Shown here in pieces: positions 27,339 to 32,271 of a stretch of 43,227 nt of DNA. The notes under the pieces were generated by a model. It saw nothing but the letters and a program-made list of their open reading frames with translations. It was not told where the DNA came from and ran no database searches. A program made the position numbers and the translations under genes. The stretch is taken from the NCBI GenBank assembly GCA_029865835.1, contig JARXAL010000053.1, positions 1 to 43,227 on the forward strand. The letters run 5' to 3'. Position 1 is the first letter of the stretch; the number at the start of each line of letters is the position of its first letter. This DNA comes from Verrucomicrobiaceae bacterium. GTDB lineage: Bacteria; Verrucomicrobiota; Verrucomicrobiia; Verrucomicrobiales; Verrucomicrobiaceae.

Positions 27339-28247
27339 TTATATCTCGGTGGTGGTTTTGAAATGGAGTTTGGCGATTTCTGACAATGAATCGCGGCCAT
27401 TGTGGGCGACGAAGTGGGTGGCGGTGGCTTTGACCTGGGCGGAGACGCCTTTGCCGAGGTCGAGGCCCCAGTGTTCGCTGGCTGATTTGAGCCAGCGGAC
27501 GAAGGCTTCGCGAGCGAGGATGGAGGCGGCGGCGACGGCGGGGTCGCTTTCGGCTTTGGTGCGTTGGACGAGTTCGATTTGGCGGCCGCGTTCCTGGAGG
27601 GCTTTTTGGAGGACGGCGGGGTTGGCGAATTGGTCGGAGAGGGCGCGGGGGCAGGAGGGGACGCGCTCGAGGAGGGTTTCGATGACTTTGGCGTGGCCCC
27701 AGGCTAGGAGGCGGTTGAGATTGCTGAACTTGGCGTAAAGCTCGTTGTAGCGTTTTGGGGCGATGATGATGACTTCGTGTTTGATGCCGGGGGTTTCGCG
27801 GATGGTTTTGGCGAGGGATTCGATGCGGGCGTCGCTGCCGATTCGTTTGCTGTCCATGACGCCTGCGGAGCGGAGGGCGCGGGCGGAATCGGCATCGACG
27901 TAGGCGCCGGCGATGACGAGGGGGCCGAAGAAGTCGCCTTTGCCGCTTTCATCGACGCCGATGTGGGGTTCGAACATTTCGGGGGCGAGGACTTCCTCGT
28001 AGCCAAGTTCAGCGGTGCCTAGGATTTCGGGTTCGAGAAGGAAGGAGACGAAGTCGCTGGTTTCCTTGCCTTGGACGACGATTTTGGGTCCTTTTTCGTA
28101 GACGGCGATGTTGACGCCGGGTTTGGTGGCGGCGTAGAGGCAGTAGGGTTTGGTTTCGAAGTGCCAGCCGCGCGCCTCCAACAGATCGCGCAGCTTGGAG
28201 GCTTGCGGGGACGTAAGCGGTTTGGTGTAGGTGGTGGGGTTTGACAT
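27339..28247 (-). CDS. rnhC: Ribonuclease HIII
   Basis: The 302-residue enzyme cuts the RNA strand of RNA/DNA hybrids. The N-terminal ~80 residues (SPQASKLRDLLEARGWHFETKPY, YEKGPKIVVQGKE) form the TBP-like substrate-binding domain that separates HIII from HII. The catalytic DESGKGDFFGPLVIAG carries Asp99 and Glu100; further acidic residues are in the MDSKRI and ESDPAVAAASILAR blocks. ATG 28247 is the first good start. It is divergent from mutY with a 52-base gap. RNase HIII is typical of Firmicutes, Chlamydiae and related PVC bacteria, supporting the taxonomic guess. Confidence 0.95.
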   Translation of the reverse strand: MSNPTTYTKPLTSPQASKLRDLLEARGWHFETKPYCLYAATKPGVNIAVYEKGPKIVVQGKETSDFVSFLLEPEILGTAELGYEEVLAPEMFEPHIGVDESGKGDFFGPLVIAGAYVDADSARALRSAGVMDSKRIGSDARIESLAKTIRETPGIKHEVIIIAPKRYNELYAKFSNLNRLLAWGHAKVIETLLERVPSCPRALSDQFANPAVLQKALQERGRQIELVQRTKAESDPAVAAASILAREAFVRWLKSASEHWGLDLGKGVSAQVKATATHFVAHNGRDSLSEIAKLHFKTTTEI

Positions 28248-28299
28248 TCGGGTGCAGAGAAGCCACCGGAAGGGTGCCGCTGCAATCTGCTTTTGACTC

Positions 28300-29325
28300 A
28301 TGCCCCATTCGACATCGCTCAATTCTGCCGCTTTAGCCGCTGCCTTGGAGGCTTGGTTTGCTGAGTGCGGGAAGGATTATCCGTGGCGTCGGACGCGGGA
28401 TCCGTATGCGATTTTGGTTTCGGAGGTGATGCTGCAGCAGACGCAGATCAGCACGGTGTTGGATCGAGGTTATTACACGAAGTGGATGGAGCGGTTTCCT
28501 GATTTTCAATCGCTAGCGGAGGCGTCAGAGGAGGTGGTTTTGCAGGCGTGGGAGGGTTTGGGTTATTACCGGAGAGCGCGCAATTTGCAAAAGTTGGCGA
28601 GGGTGGTGATGGAGAGGCATGGGGGTGTTTTGCCTGCGGATCCGGCTTTGATTTTGGCCTTGCCGGGCATTGGGCCTTACACGGCGGGGGCGCTTTCGAG
28701 TTTTGCGTTTGGGCTGCCGGAGCCAATTGTGGATGGGAATGTGAGCCGAGTTTTGGCGCGGTTGTTTCATGATGCGACGCCGATTGATAGTCGGGAGGGG
28801 ATTGCCATGCAGTGGAGTCGTGCGCGGGAGTTGGTGGCGGCGGCGAGTGATCCGGCGGCGTTCAATTCGGCGCTGATGGAGTTGGGGCAGACGATTTGCC
28901 GGACGGGGCAACCGGATTGTGAAAGCTGTCCGGTGCGGCGATTTTGTCAGGCGGTGGATCCGGCGAGTTTGCCGGTGAAGACGAACCGGATGGTGTTGAC
29001 GGATGTGACGGAGCGGGTTTTTTTTCAGAGCACGATTGAGGGGGTGATGCTGCAGCAGGAGATGGGGACGCGGCGAACGGGGCTATGGAAATTGCCGGCG
29101 TTGCCGGAGGGTGGCGAGTTGCCGCCGGTGCTGTTGAAGAGCAAGTATGGGATCACGCGCTATCGGGTGACTTTGTGGGTGCATGCGGCGCCGGAAGAGG
29201 TGCCTGAGGTGGAGGGGATGCGTTTGATCCGGTATGAGGATCTTTTTCAGACGCCGATGCCGAGTCCGTATCGGCGGGCGTTGGATGCGGTGATGAAGGG
29301 GCAGGGAGAGTTTGTTTTGGAGTGA
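28300..29325 (+). CDS. mutY: A/G-specific adenine DNA glycosylase
   Basis: The 341-residue base-excision repair enzyme removes adenine mispaired with 8-oxoguanine. The catalytic Glu42 is in SEVMLQQTQ, and the helix-hairpin-helix LPGIGPYTAGA and Asp145 in VDGNVSRVLAR are as in E. coli MutY. The [4Fe-4S] cluster motif CRTGQPDCESC...C fits the C-x6-C-x2-C-x5-C rule. The C-terminal NUDIX-like domain that checks the 8-oxoG strand is present (~240-341). The rnhC and mutY genes probably share a short divergent promoter region. Confidence 0.96.
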   Translation: MPHSTSLNSAALAAALEAWFAECGKDYPWRRTRDPYAILVSEVMLQQTQISTVLDRGYYTKWMERFPDFQSLAEASEEVVLQAWEGLGYYRRARNLQKLARVVMERHGGVLPADPALILALPGIGPYTAGALSSFAFGLPEPIVDGNVSRVLARLFHDATPIDSREGIAMQWSRARELVAAASDPAAFNSALMELGQTICRTGQPDCESCPVRRFCQAVDPASLPVKTNRMVLTDVTERVFFQSTIEGVMLQQEMGTRRTGLWKLPALPEGGELPPVLLKSKYGITRYRVTLWVHAAPEEVPEVEGMRLIRYEDLFQTPMPSPYRRALDAVMKGQGEFVLE

Positions 29326-29373: not shown

Positions 29374-31755
29374 TTATTCGATTTCGGCGGTGATGCTGAT
29401 GGCGCGGGAGTGAGTGGGCTTTCCGGATTCGTCCACGGCGATGACGCCTGAGAGGAATACCGTTTGTCCTGGCCAGATGGTGACGGTGGTGGTCATGCCG
29501 GGTTTTTCATCTTGTTTCAGGACGTGAAGGTTGAGGTCGATGGTTTGTCCGTCTGCGCCGATGGTGGGGGTGACTTGGAGGACTTGCTCGGCGTTGATTC
29601 GGGCCAGGGTGGCTTCTCCAGTGATGACGCGTTCGACAGGAACATCGGTGATTTGCACACGGGAATCTTGTTTCAGGTCTTTGACCAAGGCGGTGAATTG
29701 ATCTGATGACATCACGCCACCCATAGCGAGAGCGCCTGGAGGTGGAAGGGTATTGGTTGGAGCGATGGCTGACGGGGCACCTGCGTTGGGTGAAGCGTCA
29801 GTTAGGGGCATTGGTAGAATGGCTTTGAGGGCTTCTGCTTCGGTTGCCTCCAGGATTTTGGCGAGGATTCGAATGGGTTTCTTGGGGGTTGCCGCCACGG
29901 GTTGATGGGGTGGGGCATTGGTGGCGGCGGAGGCCAATTGATGAAGCTGACCTGGAGCGAGTTTTTGGCCGGTGGGCCGAATGAGGGCGGCGGTGACAAA
30001 GAGCATGACTTGGCGATCTGGTTCGGCATTTCCGATCGGGATTAGCAAGGTTTCGCCATCGTTCAGAGTGGCGGTTTTGGTGGCGTAGAGGTGAAGAATT
30101 TTCAGCGATGACGAGGTCATGGCTTTCCAGTCTTTCAGGCGCTTGCCATCCTGAAAGGCCACGCCCATGTCGGCGGAGGCCATCACTTCGATTTGGCCGT
30201 TTTGGCGGTTGGCGGTTTTTTGGATGGTGGCGGTTAAATCACAGCGAATGCCGGCGAAGTCCTCCCGCCCCGAAGGTGAGACATAAACTTCGCGCAGGAC
30301 CTCGACCGTGGCTTGCTGGCCGTCTCGGGTGGTGACGCTGGGAGCGGTGAGCAAGTCGACGTCCTTCGTTTGAGACAACGCGCGGATCACGGCTTGAAGC
30401 TGAGAGTCGGTCAGGAGGGGACCCAGGCGGGTCAATTCACGCGCCAGAGGGTCATCTGGCGATGGATTGGCCGGCATTTCGACCCATTTCGTGGTGAGGT
30501 AAACTTGTACTTCGTCGAACTCGACTCCTGCCTGCCATTTCTTGAGCACCTCTGCGGTTTGGTTCAAGGCGTCCGAAGTGTTGCGGGTGACGAGCTGGCT
30601 TGTGGTGGGATTGTAAACGGCAGAGGAGCCTTCGGGGAAAACGACACCGAGTTTGCTCAGCCAGTCTTTGGCGTTGTTGGCTCCGTCGAAATTGGGAGGC
30701 AGTTTAAACGCCCGGGTTTCGAGTTCTCCGGTTGTTTTTGGGGTCGTCGGGGAGGTCGGCTCCACGCCCAAGGTGCGGACGGTGAGGCCAGCGAGGGAGG
30801 TGAGAAGCAGAGCGGCAGCGATGAAGGCAGGGTGGAGGCGAGGGGCGACGGGACGCTGCTCGAGCAGAGCTTCGAGTCGGCGTCTCATGCGGCGGGCGGG
30901 GCGGGAGGTTGCCATGGAAAGGGTTTGGAGGTGAGGTTGTCGGTGGTTTGCGACCAAATCGAGCAGGAAGCTGGAGTAGGCGGTGGCGTGATGGGATTGA
31001 CCTGATAACGCGGTGGCGTCACAGATTTCTTCGCGCGCTTGTTCCCATTGAGAGACGAGCGCATGAACAAACGGGTTCCACCATTGCCAGACAGTGAGAA
31101 GGCCGAGCCATTCGCTCATCCAGGTGTCGCCGCTGCGGCGGTGTTCGCCTTCGTGGGCGAGCATCCAGCGCCAGCGTTCCGGAGTCCATGACTGGAAGGC
31201 TTCGGCAGGAACGACGATGAGCGGATTAAAGCAGCCGCTGAGGCAGGGGCCTTGACCGGTTTCAGAGACACGGAGTTTCTCTGGAGAGGTTAGGGTGGAC
31301 AGAGTCAAAGATTCTTCGTCTGTGAGTCGCCGGAGGGTTTGCCGCCAGCGATAGGTTTTCCAAAGGCGGAAGGTGCGTTGAGACGCGAGCACGAGAGAGA
31401 TGGTCAGCCACAAACCTGTGAGGAGGCGTGCCCAGGAAAAGTCGGGGAAGATGAGGGCCGACGACGGGGCACCTGAGAGGCTGGGATTGGTTTGAACTGG
31501 GGTGGGGTCCAGGTGGATTTTCCAGTTGAGGGAGGAAGGGGATGACTTTGCGGAGGATTCGAACTGAACTGGAGGAGCGGAGGAAATGGGGAAGGCGAGT
31601 AATGCGAGAGGCAGAAGGGCGGTCGCGAAGAGCACCAGCAGGGCGGTCCATGCGCGGTGTCGGGCGTCTTTGATCCCTGAGCGAAGGGTGATCCAGCCGA
31701 GGGCGGAGAGCGCCAACGCTTGAAATCCGAGGTTGAGAAGGGTGATTTCGTTCAT
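29374..31755 (-). CDS. BlaR1-like M56 metallopeptidase fused to secretin-like domains
   Basis: The 793-residue protein has an N-terminal membrane module with hydrophobic segments at ~8-23, 36-58, 108-125 and 309-327. Between the last two is a zinc peptidase domain with HEGEH (201-205) and a downstream EQAREEICDATAL helix (Glu242/243) as the likely third ligand, as in BlaR1/MecR1. Instead of the penicillin-binding sensor of BlaR1, the outside part is a ~460-residue region resembling secretin pieces: an N-domain-like stretch (WLSKLGVVFPEGSSAVYNP, then LVTRNT) at ~345-410, a secretin-core-like stretch with VDLLTAPSVTTRDGQQATVEV at ~415-595, and a second partial copy (LQVTPTIGADGQTIDLNL, WPGQTVFLSGVI) at ~625-793. 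Its ATG overlaps the blaI stop by 4 bases. Confidence 0.85.
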   Translation of the reverse strand: MNEITLLNLGFQALALSALGWITLRSGIKDARHRAWTALLVLFATALLPLALLAFPISSAPPVQFESSAKSSPSSLNWKIHLDPTPVQTNPSLSGAPSSALIFPDFSWARLLTGLWLTISLVLASQRTFRLWKTYRWRQTLRRLTDEESLTLSTLTSPEKLRVSETGQGPCLSGCFNPLIVVPAEAFQSWTPERWRWMLAHEGEHRRSGDTWMSEWLGLLTVWQWWNPFVHALVSQWEQAREEICDATALSGQSHHATAYSSFLLDLVANHRQPHLQTLSMATSRPARRMRRRLEALLEQRPVAPRLHPAFIAAALLLTSLAGLTVRTLGVEPTSPTTPKTTGELETRAFKLPPNFDGANNAKDWLSKLGVVFPEGSSAVYNPTTSQLVTRNTSDALNQTAEVLKKWQAGVEFDEVQVYLTTKWVEMPANPSPDDPLARELTRLGPLLTDSQLQAVIRALSQTKDVDLLTAPSVTTRDGQQATVEVLREVYVSPSGREDFAGIRCDLTATIQKTANRQNGQIEVMASADMGVAFQDGKRLKDWKAMTSSSLKILHLYATKTATLNDGETLLIPIGNAEPDRQVMLFVTAALIRPTGQKLAPGQLHQLASAATNAPPHQPVAATPKKPIRILAKILEATEAEALKAILPMPLTDASPNAGAPSAIAPTNTLPPPGALAMGGVMSSDQFTALVKDLKQDSRVQITDVPVERVITGEATLARINAEQVLQVTPTIGADGQTIDLNLHVLKQDEKPGMTTTVTIWPGQTVFLSGVIAVDESGKPTHSRAISITAEIE

Positions 31756-32156: not shown

Positions 32157-32206
32157 GTTATGCCGACAAATGTCAGATTTGACAAGAACAAAATACGACA
32201 TTTGTC
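32157..32206 (-). promoter_or_regulatory. blaI promoter with two BlaI-type operators
   Basis: Two copies of the dyad GACA-NN-TGTC lie at 32165-32174 (GACAAATGTC) and 32197-32206 (GACATTTGTC), matching the TACAnnTGTA pattern of BlaI/MecI/CopY operators. Their centres are 32 bp apart, about three helix turns, and they are embedded in a 14-bp inverted repeat (TGCCGACAAATGTC). Read on the - strand, a -35 TTGTCA (32180-32185) and a weak -10 CATAAC (32157-32162) are separated by 17 bp, and the proximal operator occupies the spacer, so repressor binding would block polymerase. Confidence 0.85.
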
Positions 32207-32216
32207 GGCAAAGAGG

Positions 32217-32247
32217 CAAAAAAGAAGGGCGTCCGGTGGGACGCCCT
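32217..32247 (-). terminator. Rho-independent terminator of ndk
   Basis: Read on the - strand, AGGGCGTCC pairs perfectly with GGACGCCCT around a CACC loop and is followed by TCTTTTTTG. It lies about 25 bases past the ndk stop and separates ndk from the blaI promoter. Confidence 0.92.
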
Positions 32248-32271
32248 TTGGGGGGAAGGTTTGAGGTGGGC

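Follow-up and report, generated by a model that had tools for sequence, protein, structure and literature searches.

The question raised by this locus is what a BlaR1-type membrane protease might sense when its outer part does not resemble a penicillin-binding domain. The window considered here is the whole stretch of Verrucomicrobiaceae DNA that was analysed, 43,227 nucleotides in length, taken from a genome assembly of 292 contigs that is 85.6% complete. One reading frame in this window had been predicted, from the letters of the sequence, to encode an M56 sensor peptidase fused to secretin-like domains and signalling through BlaI. The features that bear on this prediction are collected in Table 1.

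Table 1. Features of the blaI-M56-secretin locus, in coordinates of the window.
Feature	Coordinates	Strand	Basis
M56-secretin fusion protein, 793 aa	29374..31755	-	Single open frame, ATG start
Peptidase_M56 (BlaR1-type) domain, residues 34-297	30865..31656	-	Pfam, phmmer, Foldseek
HEGEH zinc-binding motif, residues 201-205	31141..31155	-	Motif scan
Last transmembrane helix (predicted), residues ~307-331	30763..30837	-	Hydropathy; AF2 helix 309-326
Secretin N3-like domain, residues ~344-430	30466..30726	-	HH alignment; structural alignment, model residues 7-263
Secretin core copy 1, residues ~431-600	29956..30465	-	Pfam, NCBIfam, Foldseek, pairwise alignment
Secretin core copy 2, residues ~624-792	29380..29886	-	HH alignment, shuffled control
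blaI, penicillinase-repressor family regulator, 131 aa	31752..32147	-	Pfam, BlaI structure match
Predicted promoter: -35 TTGTCA (32180-32185), 17-bp spacer, -10 CATAAC (32157-32162)	32157..32185	-	Sequence, 23 loci compared
Operator 2, CTGACATTTGTCGG, within 17-bp spacer of predicted promoter	32163..32176		Sequence, 23 loci compared, pair search
Operator 1, CCGACAAATGTCGT, 32 bp from operator 2	32195..32208		Sequence, 23 loci compared, pair search
Intrinsic-terminator-like hairpin and T-run	32218..32248	-	Sequence; perfect inverted repeat in relatives too

The membrane half of the protein has been assigned using both sequence and structure comparisons. The Pfam model PF05569 (Peptidase_M56) matches this half with an E-value of 1.9e-25 (90.1 bits, cut-off 31) and also matches all 20 homologues, while BlaR1 structures are matched by the fusion protein in a phmmer search (8exs) and by the full fusion model in a Foldseek search. 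In the 20-sequence alignment, H201, E202 and H205 and the distal E242 and E243 are invariant, and the HExxH plus distal glutamate zinc site is thus present. The score of the NCBIfam BlaR1 equivalog model is 46.5 bits, below its cut-off of 400. The fusion ORF accounts for the only M56 match in the source genome at its 85.6% completeness. The secretin core comes after the predicted transmembrane helices of the M56 protein, the last of which is predicted to tether the periplasmic part to the inner membrane; this order speaks against a free secretin exported to the outer membrane.

Sequence profiles and structural models together confirm that this periplasmic part (residues ~340-793) derives from secretins and is no penicillin-binding domain. 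The Pfam Secretin model scores 30.1 bits against a cut-off of 27.5 (4.4e-7) and matches 13 of the 20 homologues at E<=0.01. The NCBIfam model of the Amuc_1098 type IV pilus secretin matches several stretches of the fusion at E=4.6e-28, with an equivalog score (97.7 bits) that lies below the cut-off of 750, and the Amuc_1098 and BlaR1 models each match 20/20 aligned homologues. Furthermore, a profile of the periplasmic part built from 20 homologues was compared with the PDB, and all 19 of its 19 matches are secretins. Family-profile searches reveal no transpeptidase or beta-lactamase family on the fusion up to E=10, in agreement with the claim that the outer part carries no beta-lactamase-like motifs. 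The suggestion that a penicillin-binding domain had been overlooked by eye was rejected for the same reason, as well as for the restriction of the PDB profile matches to secretins.

Structure prediction points in the same direction. The AlphaFold2 models are of moderate confidence (mean pLDDT 71.7 for the full-length protein and 70.0 for the periplasmic part; pTM 0.41-0.45). All 28 Foldseek matches of the full fusion model at E<=0.001 are BlaR1 or secretins, ranks 1-29 for the periplasmic part alone are secretins, and in VIA-align 28 secretin entries reach Z-scores of 12.8-7.8, above the leading unrelated row (5.4). The unrelated fold that would have spoken against the original prediction is therefore missing from the significant matches. 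This structural support applies mainly to copy 1; copy 2 is weakly modelled and little informed by the VIA alignment. The anatomy of the fusion, an M56 protease followed by secretin-derived modules, can be regarded as very nearly certain.

Judged by sequence comparison, both secretin copies come from the Verrucomicrobial Amuc_1098 pilus secretin. In HH alignments to a family of 23 Amuc_1098-type secretins, copy 1 (periplasmic residues 8-156, N3-like domain and core) is matched at 100% probability with an E-value of 1e-50, and copy 2 (periplasmic residues 283-441, core) at 97.6% probability with an E-value of 4e-12. The pairwise scores of 313 and 152 exceed the respective shuffled maxima of 133 and 104, and the partial repeat of the core proposed at the outset is thereby upheld. 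The stretch originally described as N-domain-like is a secretin N3-like domain, whereas an STN/N0 domain is absent from the window protein and present in related fusions. Copy 2 has no N3-like domain of its own. The best conserved stretch of the modules (~residues 446-490, DLLTAPSVTTRDGQQATVEV) is also the closest to secretin, with 42% identity over the HH alignment and ~60% in matches, and between genera the modules are only ~30% identical. An orthologue of the fusion protein is 95% identical, and comparison with a relative at this identity gives a dN/dS of 0.18-0.20 in all three segments of the fusion, indicating that the periplasmic part is also under purifying selection. In one genome (G002), the corresponding copy (L062) stops after copy 1, suggesting that copy 2 may not be essential everywhere.

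Unlike their parent secretins, these modules are devoid of a conserved motif, VPxLGDIPxxGxLF. It is present in 19 of 23 Amuc_1098-type secretins and in 0 of 45 fused ORFs, some of which are near-duplicates or, in a few cases, lie at contig edges. Neither copy 1 nor copy 2 contains this motif, and in copy 1 the gap sits between the last two strands. When the Amuc_1098 secretin from a relative in the same genus is taken as the reference, long loops are absent from the fused copies, as is the segment IPVLGDIPILGRLF, which lies between the final two strands; most barrel strands seem to be retained. From where it lies, between these strands, we take the motif to be the amphipathic helical loop (AHL). 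The amphipathic helical loop is located between two transmembrane strands of secretins, is essential for membrane insertion and constitutes a secretin signature (PMC8134430; also PMC6532946, PMC7545093). Consequently, the fused modules are probably not outer-membrane pores.

Full-length fusions are found in ~28 of 68 Verrucomicrobiaceae genomes, with a few fragmented copies counted, and in named isolates including Verrucomicrobium sp. BvORR034/BvORR106 and Brevifollis gellanilyticus. In this form the fusion is not PVC-wide, and full-length fusions with two modules were found in Verrucomicrobiaceae only: in a 387-genome sample of the phylum, matches spanning both halves are confined to this family, and in a second family of the order M56 proteins bear weaker secretin modules, either one or two. 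In a tree of M56 proteins, sampled by similarity to the window protein so that frequencies are not representative, the clade of the window protein groups with the second family (99/98). The majority of the remaining M56 proteins that have secretin cores or STN domains belong to a separate group (97/97) that includes non-fused members, indicating at least two acquisitions of secretin parts (or repeated loss). Since nearly all of the sampled group has Amuc_1098-type secretins, finding these together with the fusion is uninformative. Interrupted genes have also been observed, including a split M56-secretin gene in one MAG, in which the frame is broken directly behind the HExxH motif (L059:5988-8365), and an interrupted copy beside blaI in Brevifollis (L078/L208).

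The related genomes also encode M56 proteins with other periplasmic parts. One carries PBP dimerisation and transpeptidase domains in a BlaR-like architecture whose periplasmic part resembles an entire class B PBP (L209:1443-4337, +), another carries a SurA-like N-terminal domain and a PPIC-type PPIase domain (L220:1881-4448, +), and a third ends in a C-terminal ExbD/TolR domain (L218:1859-3889, +). Carboxypeptidase-regulatory-like repeats are a further type of periplasmic part. Repeated STN-like domains, akin to the N-terminal part of Amuc_1098, occur in four M56 proteins (L215, L227, L228 and L202), the last of which has a core in addition. Two long proteins (L203:1146-11285, 3380 aa; L204:3172-6999, at least 1276 aa) contain repeated Amuc_1098-type STN and N3-like modules, and no M56 domain was detected in either.

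The gene upstream of the fusion encodes a BlaI-type repressor. PF03965 (Penicillinase_R) matches its product at 2e-21 (76.9 bits, cut-off 22.6), residues 2-125 match the S. aureus BlaI structure 1sd4 over the full length, and this product is the sole BlaI-family match in the source genome. The stop codon of blaI (TGA) and the start codon of the fusion gene (ATG) overlap as ATGA. A blaI gene is located directly upstream of the fusion gene at 20 of the 22 loci examined and slightly further upstream at L079, with none at L073. The blaI promoter contains two operator-like sites of the form CCGACAnnTGTCGG, which are spaced by 32 bp in 22 of 23 sequences and by 33 bp in the remaining one, and operator 2 is flanked by -35/-10-like elements across the 23 sequences. 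The terminator-like hairpin follows an upstream ndk-like gene, parting that gene from the blaI promoter. The best reading of blaI and the fusion gene is an autoregulated BlaI/M56 signalling operon; the overlapping upstream blaI, present at nearly all related loci, and the conserved tandem operators fit the signalling partner that had been proposed.

The reach of this putative operon has been probed using operator searches. Among 35 genomes searched, the spaced operator pair (<=1 mismatch) was found in nine, once per genome and always at the blaI-fusion operon, with no control matches. The 32-bp-spaced pair thus reveals no distal BlaI target in these 35 genomes, although single or diverged operators elsewhere are possible. 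Single sites show no excess over a reversed-pattern control in six relatives, and a distal regulon drawn from single sites with one mismatch was rejected, as these are mostly intragenic or unconserved. One other tandem operator site occurs in the genus, before a different blaI-M56 pair (L157). In Brevifollis, an operator pair directly precedes a fusion gene that has no blaI nearby (L073), and a second locus holds blaI with an interrupted fusion gene (L078), an arrangement that suggests BlaI action in trans. No pilus or secretion gene was recognised among the neighbouring genes examined. Conserved neighbours were discarded as a clue to function since they reflect clade-level synteny only, such as a divergent MFS-like transporter gene in one group of nine loci. 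Elsewhere in the window, a mutY-like ORF (28300-29325, +) and an RNase H-type ORF (27339-28322, -) are divergent, and their starts overlap at 28300-28322.

A mechanism can be proposed for this operon, in which the topology, protease activation and BlaI cleavage are likely by analogy to BlaR1. In the resting state, BlaI dimers bound to both operators would keep the promoter blocked. The M56 protein would span the inner membrane, its zinc protease facing the cytoplasm and its secretin-derived modules lying in the periplasm. These modules appear to retain the N3-like and core parts through which secretins bind one another and to have lost the insertion motif, and as such they should act as a tethered mimic. 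Gain or loss of a secretin-type partner, candidates being unassembled or mislocalised secretin subunits and a pilus/secretin assembly factor, would then rearrange the modules, freeing the protease to cleave BlaI and derepress the operon. That a secretin or pilus component, or its assembly state, is the signal of the switch is put forward tentatively, as a proposal with somewhat less than an even chance of being correct. The lack of a recognised pilus or secretion gene beside the operon argues against it, and with no BlaI target found besides the operon itself, there is no sign of an output that would remedy secretin problems. Furthermore, Psp senses multimeric secretins, and the mimic model needs the sensing of subunits or partners.

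Other roles for the modules have been considered. They may serve only to gather M56 proteases into a ring or cluster, with control residing in another input such as membrane state, a small ligand or the first extracellular loop. In secretins, the ring is built by the N3-like and core parts that are retained here, duplication would favour self-association, and the M56 proteins of the separate clade that carry STN only or a single core only indicate that no one secretin part is essential. However, BlaR1 is functional as a dimer that has no scaffold of this kind (PMC9834060), and two unequal, diverged copies would be odd for a simple ring subunit. A purely oligomerising role is rather unlikely. 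The modules could instead have turned to the binding of an unrelated ligand such as a peptide, cell-wall fragment, antibiotic or phage component, with the secretin fold as no more than a scaffold. This would be consistent with the variety of periplasmic domains borne by M56 sensors (PBP transpeptidase, SurA-like PPIase, ExbD, carboxypeptidase-regulatory-like repeats) and with the low identity of the modules between genera, but the best conserved stretch is also the most secretin-like, suggesting that secretin-type contacts have been retained, and an unrelated ligand is rather unlikely.

It is improbable that the fusion is an effector and not a sensor, in which case induction would yield more of a periplasmic mimic that itself sequesters or caps stray secretin subunits, with BlaI doing no more than setting the mimic's level. 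Such a role would account for an operon that holds the sole detectable operator pair per genome and has the fusion and BlaI as its only visible outputs, and PspBC both help activate Psp and neutralise secretins (PMC5596341). A passive trap would nevertheless have no need of a conserved protease (HExxH) or of a BlaI encoded alongside it, and single or diverged operators may exist elsewhere. Finally, the fragmented genome and the split (L059, L078) or truncated (L062) relatives might speak for a pseudogene in decay or for an artefact of assembly or annotation. This reading is rejected because full-length fusions recur in independent genomes, named isolates among them, and because the single open frame in the window evolves under the low dN/dS given above.

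In a wider reading, Verrucomicrobia may equip BlaR1-type proteases with decoy inputs made of truncated copies of their own envelope machines, in a modular form of proteolytic envelope surveillance. This wider proposal is speculative and, on balance, unlikely. Were it true, the secretin mimic would detect stray secretin or pilus subunits as a functional counterpart of Psp, and would work alongside the PBP transpeptidase-, SurA-like PPIase- and STN-bearing M56 proteins. In the small sample available, envelope-machine parts as inputs may be a general theme among M56 sensors, which suggests that these sensors form a general platform whose inputs are able to copy envelope machines. The fusion operon is a testable candidate for the monitoring of pilus/secretin assembly in Verrucomicrobia, the relatives of Akkermansia. 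No description of M56-secretin fusions was found in the part of the literature covered by our search.

Several known systems share features with this operon. In receptors of the FecA/FpvA type, an STN domain, which is a secretin/TonB N-terminal domain, serves as a periplasmic signalling element acting via an anti-sigma factor. STN domains are likewise present in some related M56 fusions, whereas the window protein has none and would signal through BlaI proteolysis and not through an anti-sigma factor. The Amuc_1098 type IV pilus secretin, as the apparent source of both modules, shares the N3-like domain and core with up to ~60% local identity. In contrast to this secretin, the fusion is tethered to an M56 protein, has tandem core copies and is without the STN/N0 domain, TPR parts, long loops and VPxLGDIPxxGxLF motif.

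At the inner membrane, mislocalised secretins are found in complexes with Psp proteins (PMC5596341), which provides a precedent for secretin surveillance in bacteria. In the proposed reading, in which secretins are the putative signal, the fusion operon would similarly be an inner-membrane system that reacts to secretins. The Psp system (PspA/B/C/F) differs in recognising multimeric secretins, and the fusion system is not known to be homologous to it.

The closest parallels are with the BlaR1/MecR1-BlaI/MecI systems of Staphylococcus and Bacillus, which also comprise an M56 gluzincin membrane protease with an HExxH motif and similar predicted topology, a periplasmic C-terminal input domain, a co-encoded BlaI-family repressor and operator-like palindromes in their own promoter. 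The operator core of the fusion operon, GACAnnTGTC, differs from the BlaI/MecI core, TACAnnTGTA. No beta-lactamase or PBP target gene was seen near the fusion operon, unlike in the BlaR1/MecR1 systems. In S. aureus, BlaR1 cleaves BlaI directly under the control of its sensor domain (PMC9834060); the corresponding input domain of the fusion is secretin-derived and not penicillin-binding. The BlaR1/BlaI switch, known almost only for the sensing of beta-lactams, has here taken up parts of a secretion or pilus pore, and apparently has done so at least twice.
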